This document shows, piece by piece, positions 12,791 through 22,357 of a stretch of DNA of 40,225 nucleotides. Position numbers and translations under genes: made by a program. Position 1 is the first letter of the stretch, and the number at the start of each line of letters is the position of its first letter. Origin of the DNA: Parcubacteria group bacterium GW2011_GWA2_38_13b (lineage in GTDB: Bacteria > Patescibacteriota > Minisyncoccia > GWA2-38-13b); contig LBUF02000019.1 in assembly GCA_000992445.2 (NCBI GenBank), forward strand, positions 10,111-50,335. The letters run 5' to 3'. Below the pieces are notes generated by a model. The model ran no database searches. It was not told the origin of the DNA and was given only the letters and a program-made list of their open reading frames with translations.

Positions 12791-13189
12791 CTATACACGC
12801 GCCGATGGCTGACTTTCCAATTGGATGATCCGCGCTTCATGATCTTCCATTTTATCATCAACTCTTCTATAAGACACCGTATGCGCCGCTTGTTCCTCCC
12901 GTATTATTTTCAGCTCCTTGATTATCTTGTCATTACTCGTAAGCACCTCATCGCGGCTATTTATCACTTCCTCGCGAAGTTGTCTTAATTCCCCTTTTGT
13001 TGCCAAACCAACGATTATTGTTGCCAAACCGGCAACGGCTTCTTTCAGCTCATCCTTTGTTGCCAAACCGGCAACGGCTTCTTTCAGCTCATCCTTTGTT
13101 GCCAAACGCTCTTTTATATCGTTAAAATCTTGCTGAATAACAACAGCCAATTTACCTAAAGTCATTTTTTGTTTTTTTATTTTTTTCAT
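12791..13189 (-). CDS. coiled-coil protein with tandem 13-residue repeats
   Basis: A 132-residue, highly charged helical protein. Residues about 30-56 contain two identical 13-residue repeats (LATKDELKEAVAG type) plus partial ones on each side, followed by a long helix (LRQLREEVINSRDE and IIKELKIIREEQAAH). The repeat is mirrored at DNA level by a 39-base unit (13021-13098). Such proteins are frequent in CPR genomes, but function is unknown. The reading frame opens at ATG 13189 without a clear ribosome binding site. A family-1 palindrome separates it from the glutamate dehydrogenase gene upstream. Confidence 0.6.
   Translation of the reverse strand: MKKIKKQKMTLGKLAVVIQQDFNDIKERLATKDELKEAVAGLATKDELKEAVAGLATIIVGLATKGELRQLREEVINSRDEVLTSNDKIIKELKIIREEQAAHTVSYRRVDDKMEDHEARIIQLESQPSARV
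13021..13107. repeat. 39-base tandem repeat inside the coiled-coil gene
   Basis: Two identical 39-base units (13021-13059 and 13060-13098) beginning TTGCCAAACCGGCAACGGCT, then a 9-base partial unit. A more diverged partial copy lies just before, near 13000. 39 bases is 13 codons, so unit number can change without a frameshift. Confidence 0.85.
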
Positions 13190-19614: not shown

Positions 19615-20898
19615 TTATTTTCTCAATTTTTCAATCATTTCCGGCAAAATTTTCAAAACTCTGTCAATTTCTTCTTGCGTCGTAAATTTTCCAAAACTAA
19701 ACCGCACTGAACTCATCGTTTCTTTTTTAGAAAGCCCCGTTGCCAGCAAAACATACGACGGTTCAATGGCTTTGGCTTGGCAGGCGGAACCGGACGATGC
19801 CATAATTCCCGCTTCATCAAGCGCAATAAGCAATGTCTCCGCTTCCGCGCCTTTAAATAAAATATTGCTTATATGCGGCGCGCGCGGCGCGCCACCGCCG
19901 TTTACGCTCGTATTTTTTATATTTTTCAACAAATTTTCTTCAAAATAATCGCGCAAGCTCGTTATATTTTGAATTTGTGATTTTGGATTTGTGATTTTAT
20001 TGAAAATTGGAAATTGAAAATTGAAACTTGGGTGCCTGATAATTTCAACAGCTTTTCCTAATCCTACTATGCCTACTACATTTTCAGTGCCTGAACGGAG
20101 CCCGAATTCCTGACCTCCTCCTTCAATTAATGGTGCAATCGGCGTGCCGTCTTTAACAAATAAAACGCCGATGCCTTTTGGTCCGCCGATTTTATGGGCC
20201 GACAAAGAAAGCAAATCGCAACCGAGATCGCGAATATTTAACGGCAAATATCCGGCCGCCTGAACCGCGTCAATGTGAAACAATGGGTATTGAATGCCTA
20301 ATTTTGACCTATTTTCCGTTTTCCATTCTTTTATTATTTTTCCTATTTCTCCAATGGGCTGAATAACGCCGGTTTCATTATTAACATACATCGCGGAAAT
20401 CAATGCCGTGTTTTCTTTTATTTTATTTTTCAGATTATTTATATCCACCGCGCCATTTTTATCAACGGGCAAATATATCGCTTCCACCAATCCTGATTTC
20501 TCCAACGATTCAACCGGTTTCAAAACCGACTTATGCTCAATTTCGTTCGTAATAATGTGAACTTGAAACTTACCTGCCCCGTAGCGTCCCGCCAACGGCG
20601 GGACTGCTTCGGAGAAGCTTGAGACTTGAAACTTATTAATAACACCTTTTATCGCCAGATTATTCGCTTCCGTGGCGCCGGAAGTAAAATATACTTCAAT
20701 GAAATTGCAGCCCAAAAAATCCGCAACTGTTTCGCGGGCTTTATCAACAGCCACTCGCGCCTCCTGCCCTAAAGAATGAGTTGACGACGGATTGCCGAAT
20801 TTATCCTCCAAATATAGCTCCATCGCTTTTTTTACTTCCGGGTCAATCGGCGTCGTCGCGGCATAATCAAAGTAAATTTTTTCCACAATACTGGACAT
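19615..20898 (-). CDS. cysteine desulfurase, class I (IscS/NifS type), with in-frame inserts
   Basis: A 427-residue pyridoxal-phosphate enzyme: YFDYAATTPIDP at the start, TSGATEANNLAIKG (72-85), HIDAVQAAGYLP (208-219), cofactor Lys236 in SLSAHKIGGPKG, and catalytic Cys373 in the class I loop MASSGSACQAK. It removes sulfur from cysteine for Fe-S clusters and thiolated tRNA. It is longer than typical (about 385-400) because of two extra stretches. Residues 89-109 lie between two copies of KFQV and come from an insert flanked by 12-base direct repeats. Residues 289-311 (PSFNFQFPIFN...) come from AT-rich simple sequence. Both fall at surface-loop positions judged by alignment to memory of the family. 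Encoded 25 bases after the SufS-like gene. Confidence 0.9.
   Translation of the reverse strand: MSSIVEKIYFDYAATTPIDPEVKKAMELYLEDKFGNPSSTHSLGQEARVAVDKARETVADFLGCNFIEVYFTSGATEANNLAIKGVINKFQVSSFSEAVPPLAGRYGAGKFQVHIITNEIEHKSVLKPVESLEKSGLVEAIYLPVDKNGAVDINNLKNKIKENTALISAMYVNNETGVIQPIGEIGKIIKEWKTENRSKLGIQYPLFHIDAVQAAGYLPLNIRDLGCDLLSLSAHKIGGPKGIGVLFVKDGTPIAPLIEGGGQEFGLRSGTENVVGIVGLGKAVEIIRHPSFNFQFPIFNKITNPKSQIQNITSLRDYFEENLLKNIKNTSVNGGGAPRAPHISNILFKGAEAETLLIALDEAGIMASSGSACQAKAIEPSYVLLATGLSKKETMSSVRFSFGKFTTQEEIDRVLKILPEMIEKLRK
20561..20635. repeat. in-frame insert with 12-base direct repeats in the IscS-like gene
   Basis: ACTTGAAACTTA occurs at 20561-20572 and again at 20624-20635. The 51 bases between include the hairpin TCCCGCCAACGGCGGGA (20587-20603). 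The period is 63 bases, exactly 21 codons, so the reading frame is kept. Confidence 0.8.
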
Positions 20899-20923: not shown

Positions 20924-22357
20924 TTATTTTATCCGCAATTTATATGCTCCATTTTCGTAGATATAATCCCTTTTCCATTTTTTCTCCGCAATCATCTTAA
21001 CTCCCCTGATTAATTTATCAACATCTTTTTTATTATTAAATATTCCTAATGACGCGCGCAAAGTGCCGGGAATTATTAAATTTTCCGTTTCGGTAATTCC
21101 CTTTTGTTTTTTTGCCAATATTTTTTTTATTTTTTCAATATCTTTTTTATTTAATTTCAATAATTGTTTTAAGTAAATATGCGCACAATGGCAACCGTTG
21201 CGAATCGCCGCGCCCGCTTCATAATTCAGTATGGCGACCGCCAAACTATGATGAATATTTTCTATATTAAACGAAACAAGACCCAAATGCCATTCAAAAT
21301 TTAAATCGCCGTAAACCCCGTTAGAAGTCCGATTTACCAAAGACATGTCGGCATCCCGCACTGCGGGGTTACTTCTAATGGGGTAAATTTTTACTTGCGG
21401 TATCTTTTTTAATTCACCGACTAAATATTCGAACAATTCCATTTCGTGTTTTCTAATATTTTTCATACCGATTTTTTTCAGCCACTTCATCGCTTCACCT
21501 AAAACAATCGCGCCGGCAATATTCGGCGTTCCGCCTTCGTGCCGTTCCGGAGATAAAGAATAATTAACTTCATCGGGTAAAACATAATTTATCGTTCCGC
21601 CTCCGGGTCTATACGATTCCGCTTCATCCAATATCGCTCGCGGCGCATACAAAAACGCAACGCCCGGCGCGTACATTTTGTGTCCGGCGCCAGCGAAAAA
21701 ATCAATACCGTATTTTTTCACATCTAACGGCATATGCGCCAACGCCTGCGCGCCATCAATTAAAATCTTAGCGCCGTATTTATGCGCCAATTTCGCCATC
21801 AAACCGATATCCGATAAAATTCCGGTTACATTGGAAACGCCGGAAACCGCGACTAATTTAACATCGTATTTTTTCAATTTTTTTTCCAAATCCGCGTAAT
21901 CAATATTGCCAAATTCATCAACGCAAAAAAGCTCAACAACATTATCGCGCAAATATGGCAAATAATTGGAATGATGCTCCATCTCACTCGCAAGAACAAT
22001 GCCTTTTTTATTTTTTATCAAATGCGCCGCCAAATTCAAGGCATCCGTCGTATTATAAGCAAAGATTATTTCGTGCGTTTTTTTATCACCGCCGATAAAA
22101 TCCATCGCTATTTTCCTCGCTTCTTCATATTTTACGGTGGAAATTATAGAAAAATAATGCGCGCCCCTGTGAACATTGGAATAATATTTATTAAAAATTT
22201 CGCAAAATTTCTTCTGTAAAAACAACGGCATCGGAGTTGACGCCGCGTTATCCAAATACGCGATTGATTCTCCATGAAAATCGCCCCTGCCAAAAACAGG
22301 ATATTTTTCTTTTAGCAAAGGAAATTCTTTTCTAATTGAATTCCAATTTATATTCAT
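20924..22357 (-). CDS. cysteine desulfurase, class II (SufS/CsdA type), with in-frame element
   Basis: A 477-residue pyridoxal-phosphate enzyme. LDNAASTPMP, NVHRGAHYFS and ILIDGAQALAHMPLD lead to cofactor Lys227 in GAGHKMYAPG. The catalytic Cys391 sits in IRNGCHCAH, the class II loop (family form RxGHHCA). It is longer than the usual 405-415 residues. A C-terminal extension ends KWKRDYIYENGAYKLRIK, and 24 residues (326-349) are encoded by a family-1 palindromic element sitting exactly between VKIY and GDLNFEWHL. The gene overlaps the upstream nuclease by 4 bases (ATGA), suggesting translational coupling. No SufB/C/D, SufU or IscU gene is present in the window. Confidence 0.88.
   Translation of the reverse strand: MNINWNSIRKEFPLLKEKYPVFGRGDFHGESIAYLDNAASTPMPLFLQKKFCEIFNKYYSNVHRGAHYFSIISTVKYEEARKIAMDFIGGDKKTHEIIFAYNTTDALNLAAHLIKNKKGIVLASEMEHHSNYLPYLRDNVVELFCVDEFGNIDYADLEKKLKKYDVKLVAVSGVSNVTGILSDIGLMAKLAHKYGAKILIDGAQALAHMPLDVKKYGIDFFAGAGHKMYAPGVAFLYAPRAILDEAESYRPGGGTINYVLPDEVNYSLSPERHEGGTPNIAGAIVLGEAMKWLKKIGMKNIRKHEMELFEYLVGELKKIPQVKIYPIRSNPAVRDADMSLVNRTSNGVYGDLNFEWHLGLVSFNIENIHHSLAVAILNYEAGAAIRNGCHCAHIYLKQLLKLNKKDIEKIKKILAKKQKGITETENLIIPGTLRASLGIFNNKKDVDKLIRGVKMIAEKKWKRDYIYENGAYKLRIK
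21312..21386. repeat. family-1 palindromic element, copy 4, inside the SufS-like gene
   Basis: Left end TAAACCCCGTTAGAAGT, right end ACTTCTAATGGGGTAAAT inverted, and an inner hairpin GCATCCCGCACTGCGGGG. Unlike copies 1 and 2 it is read in the frame without a stop, adding 24 codons. Confidence 0.82.

Follow-up and report, generated by a model that had tools for sequence, protein, structure and literature searches.

The IscS-type cysteine desulfurase gene found in the window (the whole 40,225-nucleotide stretch of DNA analysed, part of a genome of 875 kb in 21 contigs) encodes an extra loop, and the DNA coding for this loop carries a hairpin bracketed by a 12-base direct repeat. The locus thereby raises the question of whether the repeats are the footprint of an inserted element, as the preliminary description of this DNA had proposed, or belong to the sequence in which the hairpin resides.

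The extra loop of the IscS-type protein

The gene product is assigned to PF00266 over residues 8–414 (Pfam, E 8.6e-72) and matches solved cysteine desulfurases of the PDB with E-values down to 2.6e-88. It is an IscS-type enzyme of the Aminotran_5 fold that keeps the PLP lysine (SAHKIGGPKG), the histidine of EHKSV and the loop cysteine of SGSAC. Its closest named relatives in the GTDB collection are found in Wildermuthbacteria and other Parcubacteria (~43%), which on the strength of this one protein suggests a patescibacterial organism; the nearest IscS among the genomes searched is ~52% identical. The coordinates of the gene and of the features within it are listed in Table 1.

The layout of the insert is the one first described: the 12-mer ACTTGAAACTTA is present exactly twice, its copies starting 63 bases apart, the hairpin TCCCGCCAACGGCGGGA is located between them, and the frame reads KFQV-SSFSEAVPPLAGRYGAG-KFQV-HIITNEIEHKSV with 17 residues separating both KFQV. 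The single-strand fold of the hairpin is far stronger than that of shuffled sequences (z = −4.4 as DNA and −4.5 as RNA). It was also correctly perceived that a hairpin-bearing element is inserted in frame in this gene and missing from its homologues. The loop extending from IKG to HIIT has 28 residues, against 8 to ~20 in most of the 32 further IscS-type sequences compared from the class to which the genome belongs, solved cysteine desulfurase structures show a gap opposite SSFSEAVPPLAGRYGAG, and a paralogue encoded by the same genome lacks the hairpin-coded residues. These alignments therefore show that the extra loop was inserted in this lineage. Long loops are found in two or three relatives and have unrelated sequence. 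A unique core together with homologues sharing the loop had been expected to speak against an insertion; the 51-base core is indeed unique in this genome by blastn, though its palindrome is a member of a family (see below), and the homologues do not share the loop.

The AlphaFold model of the protein (12 homologues supplied) has an intact fold with a pTM of 0.86, and pLDDT values below 50 are confined to residues 1–3, 95–109, 259–264 and 290–303. Residues 95–109 coincide exactly with the extra loop. Residues 290–303 correspond to a second heptad insert, the HPSFNFQFPIFNKITNPKSQIQN segment, which is missing from most homologues and predicted to be disordered. The extra loop keeps the frame and occupies a surface loop that connects a helix to a strand, which makes it probable that the enzyme remains functional; we infer that the protein is expressed and active.

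Table 1. Features of the IscS-type gene and of its insert (window positions).
Feature	Positions	Strand	Remarks
IscS/NifS-type cysteine desulfurase gene	19615–20898	−	427 aa, open reading frame intact
Second heptad tract, encoding HPSFNFQFPIFNKITNPKSQIQN	19966–20030		Tandem Repeats Finder period 7 and 14; gap in homologue alignment; pLDDT <50
Left heptad units GAACTTG + AAACTTA	20559–20572	+	Holds left 12-mer (20561–20572); lag-7 identity; ends in TTA beside the left end of the element
Palindromic element CCTGCCCCGTAGCGTCCCGCCAACGGCGGGACTGCTTCGGAG	20573–20614	+	Covariance model R1; minus-strand reading encodes most of SEAVPPLAGRYGAG
Inner hairpin GTCCCGCC-AAC-GGCGGGAC	20586–20604		Sequence varies, pairing kept across the family
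Right heptad units AAGCTTG + AGACTTG + AAACTTA	20615–20635	+	Holds right 12-mer (20624–20635); in phase with the right end of the element
Insert-spanning peptide stretches SPKESLRDPTGQA and DPEGVASRPYGAG			IscS-type protein

A palindrome family with a covarying stem

The 75-base stretch delimited by the repeats matched other genomes of the class as two separate pieces, TTACCTGCCCCGTAGCGTCCCGCC...GGCGGGACTGC and GAAGCTTGAGACTTGAAACTTA. The first piece is found elsewhere with a constant head CCTGCCCCGTAGY, a stem that changes while its pairing is kept, and an RCTWCGGGG tail. The exact pattern of the window's own palindrome, which is too strict, had no match in the collection of genome contigs. 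A strict palindrome pattern reached just 8 genomes in the whole class and a covariance model (R1) was therefore built from an alignment of 18 copies. In this alignment 90% of the helix cells are paired and 27 cells are compensatory, against 8 in shuffles. The set was then extended to 113 distinct copies (138 matches), of which 94% of the helix cells are paired (76% when shuffled) with a covariation score of 0.453 (0.107 in shuffles and no more than 0.103 when slid); note that the 113-copy alignment was fitted to R1, so that the 18-copy alignment provides the cleaner pairing count. The family consensus is CCTGCCCCGTAGY, a covarying stem and tRCTWCGGGG, with a total length of 36–45 bases.

The window copy has all these components (CCTGCCCCGTAG head, covarying inner stem and RCTWCGGGG tail) and matches R1 at positions 20570–20614 with 51.3 bits and an E-value of 1.1e-8, a score to be read knowing that this copy belonged to the 18-sequence training set. 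Further copies in the same genome form an inverted pair located between two genes of contig C1 (141215 on the minus strand and 141269 on the plus strand). R1 matches were identified in 138 of the 384 genomes of the class (E ≤ 0.01) and in 38 of ~266 sampled genomes from the other classes of the phylum (E ≤ 0.001), and zero matches were obtained at E ≤ 0.1 when 13 genomes containing known loci (4 Patescibacteria and 9 from other groups) served as controls. No Rfam family gave a match, the search yielding one chance-level snoRNA hit below the cut-off, and no description of the family was found in the open-licence papers searched. Most copies have a left flank with T-G or T-A at its end, which resembles a preference for certain target sites. 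In contig C22 of another genome (G105; loci L059, L073 and L080) inverted palindrome doublets are found between ribosomal protein genes (S19, L22, S3 region) in a REPIN-like arrangement.

Heptanucleotide units on both sides of the palindrome

The sequences bordering the window copy are organised in units of seven bases, the full arrangement being GAACTTG-AAACTTA-palindrome-AAGCTTG-AGACTTG-AAACTTA. When the two flanks are joined, 25 of 49 positions are identical at lag 7 (permutation p 0.0007, rising to 0.005 after correction for the choice among lags 4 to 12). This is the period-7 self-similarity of a heptanucleotide tandem array, with units that are degenerate here (5/7). The 9 bases AAGCTTGAG between the end of the element (CGGGG) and the right 12-mer continue the 7-base pattern. 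The right-hand stretch has 86–100% matches, without the palindrome, in dozens of other genomes, and its sole match elsewhere in its own genome (contig C4, position 9901) is a pure AAACTTG array from which the palindrome is absent.

Same-phase heptads enclose the palindrome in several other genes: AAATTTTG and AATTTTGAATTTTG lie to its left and right in SecA, GGATTTGGGATTTG and GGATTTGGGATTT in a FemAB protein, and TTGATTCTTG and ATGCTTGATTC in ProRS, while the palindrome of locus L186 is flanked by CACTTTG units, also in phase. Identical or near-identical heptads are present on each side in SecA, FemAB, ProRS, MiaA and other hosts. Among the 113 copies, the two flanking 7-mers match at 6 or more of 7 positions in 10, where ~1 is expected, and this holds for lag 7 without offset only; there is no excess at lags 5, 6 and 9, and lag 8 gives one copy against 0.35 expected. 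Period-7 arrays are also more frequent than in Markov shuffles, both in stretches of the own genome (13 versus 2) and in the class loci (24 versus 0), the latter having been chosen for carrying the palindrome.

The end of the palindrome family at CGGGG, the heptad-like character of the 9 bases that follow and the same-phase arrays found elsewhere thus lead to a reading that explains the 12-mers and the 9 extra bases as well as the parallels seen in other genes. We consider it quite probable that the extra loop is a family palindrome nested in a heptanucleotide array, the 12-mers being units of that array and not an insertion duplication. A short tandem array, roughly (RRNYTTG)n, would have been located in the coding sequence first. 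The palindrome (CCTGCCCCGTAGY-stem-tRCTWCGGGG), whose family is phylum-wide, would have entered it afterwards directly 3′ of a TTA or TTG, leaving array units on its two sides as the 12-base direct repeats. Its movement may be non-autonomous, an enzyme supplied in trans probably recognising it as a hairpin. A 12-base repeat is, moreover, less unusual in this DNA than its appearance suggests, because an exact 12-mer is repeated within 100 bases at ~7 separate places of the window, several of them in tandem or heptad tracts. Elsewhere in the window, a perfect 39-bp tandem repeat of 2.3 copies spans positions 13018–13107.

Heptanucleotide tandem arrays are known from heterocystous cyanobacteria as STRR repeats. 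The arrays described here resemble them in having tandem 7-base units scattered across the genome, but their units are AT-rich, degenerate and varied (AAACTTG, AATTTTG, GGATTTG, CACTTTG and others), they are also intragenic and some of them host the palindrome.

The interpretation first given to the repeats, a 51-base element bounded by a 12-base target-site duplication, now appears unlikely. It draws on the exact identity of the 12-mers, on the near-normal length of the loop that is left when the core and one repeat are deleted (NNLAIKGVINKFQVHIITNE), on the alignment of KFQV to ordinary helix residues of homologues, and on the palindromes found beside a repeated host stretch in five MnmA genes (see below). 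However, the family boundary CCTG...CGGGG leaves the 9 bases AAGCTTGAG before the right-hand repeat unexplained within such an element, and the same stretch of 9 plus 12 bases is found elsewhere without the palindrome. The enrichment at the junctions is at 7 bases, not 12. Near-identical flanks are present in only ~9% of the copies, where the lag is always 7 bases and a longer heptad array is often involved; fixed-length direct repeats flush with both ends, as in a transposon or MITE, are not found in most copies. Nor do flanking repeats accompany every insertion, since the clean ones in PheRS, RF2 and a mercuric-reductase-like protein have no direct repeats. Flanking repeats that would naturally be read as transposition footprints can thus be leftovers of heptad arrays.

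In five MnmA genes belonging to four families (L250, L252, L253, L256 and L265) the native P-loop strand (KxVxVAMS) is present twice, with the palindrome inserted in frame between its copies, as in RKVVVAMS-PRKSLRDFAGQAGGTEKK-RVVVAMSGGVDSS, where it follows the repeated native first strand. The strand copies differ at synonymous sites and the repeated host stretch is not heptad; most other MnmA proteins listed lack this arrangement. An ancient insertion accompanied by duplication, and since conserved, could explain it, and so could repeated insertion at one site. Insertion with duplication is therefore possible for some members of the family, because these palindromes are flanked by repeated host sequence that is not heptad.

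Palindromes in conserved genes and their possible mobilisation

Long open frames contain 43 of 116 distinct palindrome copies. The palindrome was found in frame in 25 Pfam-supported host ORFs, the window gene included, which code for many unrelated conserved proteins: MnmA, SecA, AspRS, PheRS, ProRS, MiaA, RF2, ribosomal protein L18, HsdM, a histidine kinase, FtsZ (in its tail), MltG/YceG, FemAB-like proteins and a mercuric-reductase-like protein. Of these ORFs, 23 (all except L175 and L211) read one and the same element strand, and in them the palindrome encodes (S)PKESLRDPTGQA or (D)PEGVASRPYGAG; the window insert SEAVPPLAGRYGAG corresponds to the second frame, of the (D)PEGVASRPYGAG type. 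A stop is present in one of the three frames of the opposite strand, which alone predicts ~60% same-strand reading, against 92% observed. Comparison with solved homologues reveals clean gaps of 12–13 residues in PheRS, RF2 and the mercuric-reductase-like protein. Of the 43 coding-like copies, 38 have a length divisible by 3, compared with 41 of the 73 others. The true start codon could be situated downstream of those insertions that are near an annotated start (MnmA, L139, L159 and L211).

Protein-coding palindromes have their best-known examples in Rickettsia. According to a review (PMC10969869), the Rickettsia palindromic elements (RPEs; Ogata et al. 2000, 2002) are ~100–150 bp long and, being inserted in frame, add a surface segment to the products of many unrelated conserved genes in a reduced genome. 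The 25 host ORFs identified here follow the same pattern, but the present copies measure 36–45 bp, outside that length range, belong to another phylum, have their own consensus and lie partly in heptad arrays (as set against published descriptions of the RPEs). RPE-4 and RPE-6 are shorter and carry CGTC ends (PMC3733652). What defines the REPs is a tag, GTAG or CGTC, at one end, and those with GTAG accompany RAYTs (Di Nocera et al. 2013, PMC3733652). The same paper lists GTAG REPs in Proteobacteria, Cyanobacteria, Chloroflexi and PVC, and CGTC REPs in five phyla, Patescibacteria not being among them; some of the intragenic REPs, single or in inverted doublets, reside in frame in genes of tRNA synthetases and tRNA modification enzymes. 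The family described here shares with them the form of a short palindrome (20–40 bp in REPs) occurring as singletons and inverted doublets. It differs in that its GTAG is base-paired inside the helix (alignment columns 12–15), no terminal GTAG or CGTC tag being found outside the stem. The palindrome family, the intragenic REPs and the RPEs are the same kind of thing, and the best reading of the palindrome is that of a Patescibacterial counterpart of the other two.

That the palindrome would be the REP of one of the three RAYT genes of this genome is highly improbable. RAYT-length Y1 transposases are encoded in 54 of 93 genomes of the class, and inverted palindrome doublets are known in G105 and in the own contig C1. 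Against this, the palindrome motif was found near none of 30 RAYT loci, which are flanked by other palindromes, RAYT presence does not track the family (29/46 versus 25/47, p = 0.40), and GTAG lies inside the stem and is not a terminal tag; RAYT is accordingly not supported as the mobiliser. In the own contig C15 (L133), the RAYT gene at 2075–2797 contains a long in-frame palindrome, CGAGGCCCGACCTCACTCAG...CTGAATGAGGTCGGGCCTCG (2555–2597), with related palindromes beside it. Even less credible is an expansion of the native loop by a lineage-specific, low-complexity IscS insert unrelated to mobile repeats: the IKG–HIIT loop ranges in the class from ~8 residues to the high twenties and is predicted to be disordered here, but the DNA fits, with E ~1e-8, a covarying palindrome family of unrelated genes and intergenic spaces, a recurrence that largely refutes it.

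Beyond the nested palindrome of the IscS-type gene, we lean slightly towards the view that Patescibacteria carry an undescribed, phylum-wide group of mobile protein-coding palindromes. These would enter at TTR, often within heptanucleotide arrays, be read nearly always from one strand, decorate universal proteins of translation and secretion, occupy repeatedly one site in MnmA and depend on a mobiliser other than the resident RAYT. If the family is mobile, the streamlined Patescibacterial genomes build peptide segments of essential proteins from selfish DNA, which would help to account for odd insertions in tRNA synthetases, release factors and Fe-S enzymes. The family would then also provide a marker for insertion polymorphism, and annotators and structural biologists should be cautious with such loops, as they would be repeat-derived.

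The adjoining SufS-type gene hosts a different element, as had been noticed at the outset. It is found in frame at window positions 21315–21384, where terminal inverted repeats delimit it (ACCCCGTTAGAAGT...ACTTCTAATGGGGT). In 110 class loci (366 kb, window included) the end motif CCCCGTTAGA/TCTAACGGGG of this element was counted 22 times, against 0 in the reversed control, by which measure the element is a member of a second dispersed family. Other peptide insertions look recurrent, such as RQGFGGQ in an IscS and IFAKASAGKE beside a palindrome (L028 and L050); they suggest that these genomes contain more coding repeat families.
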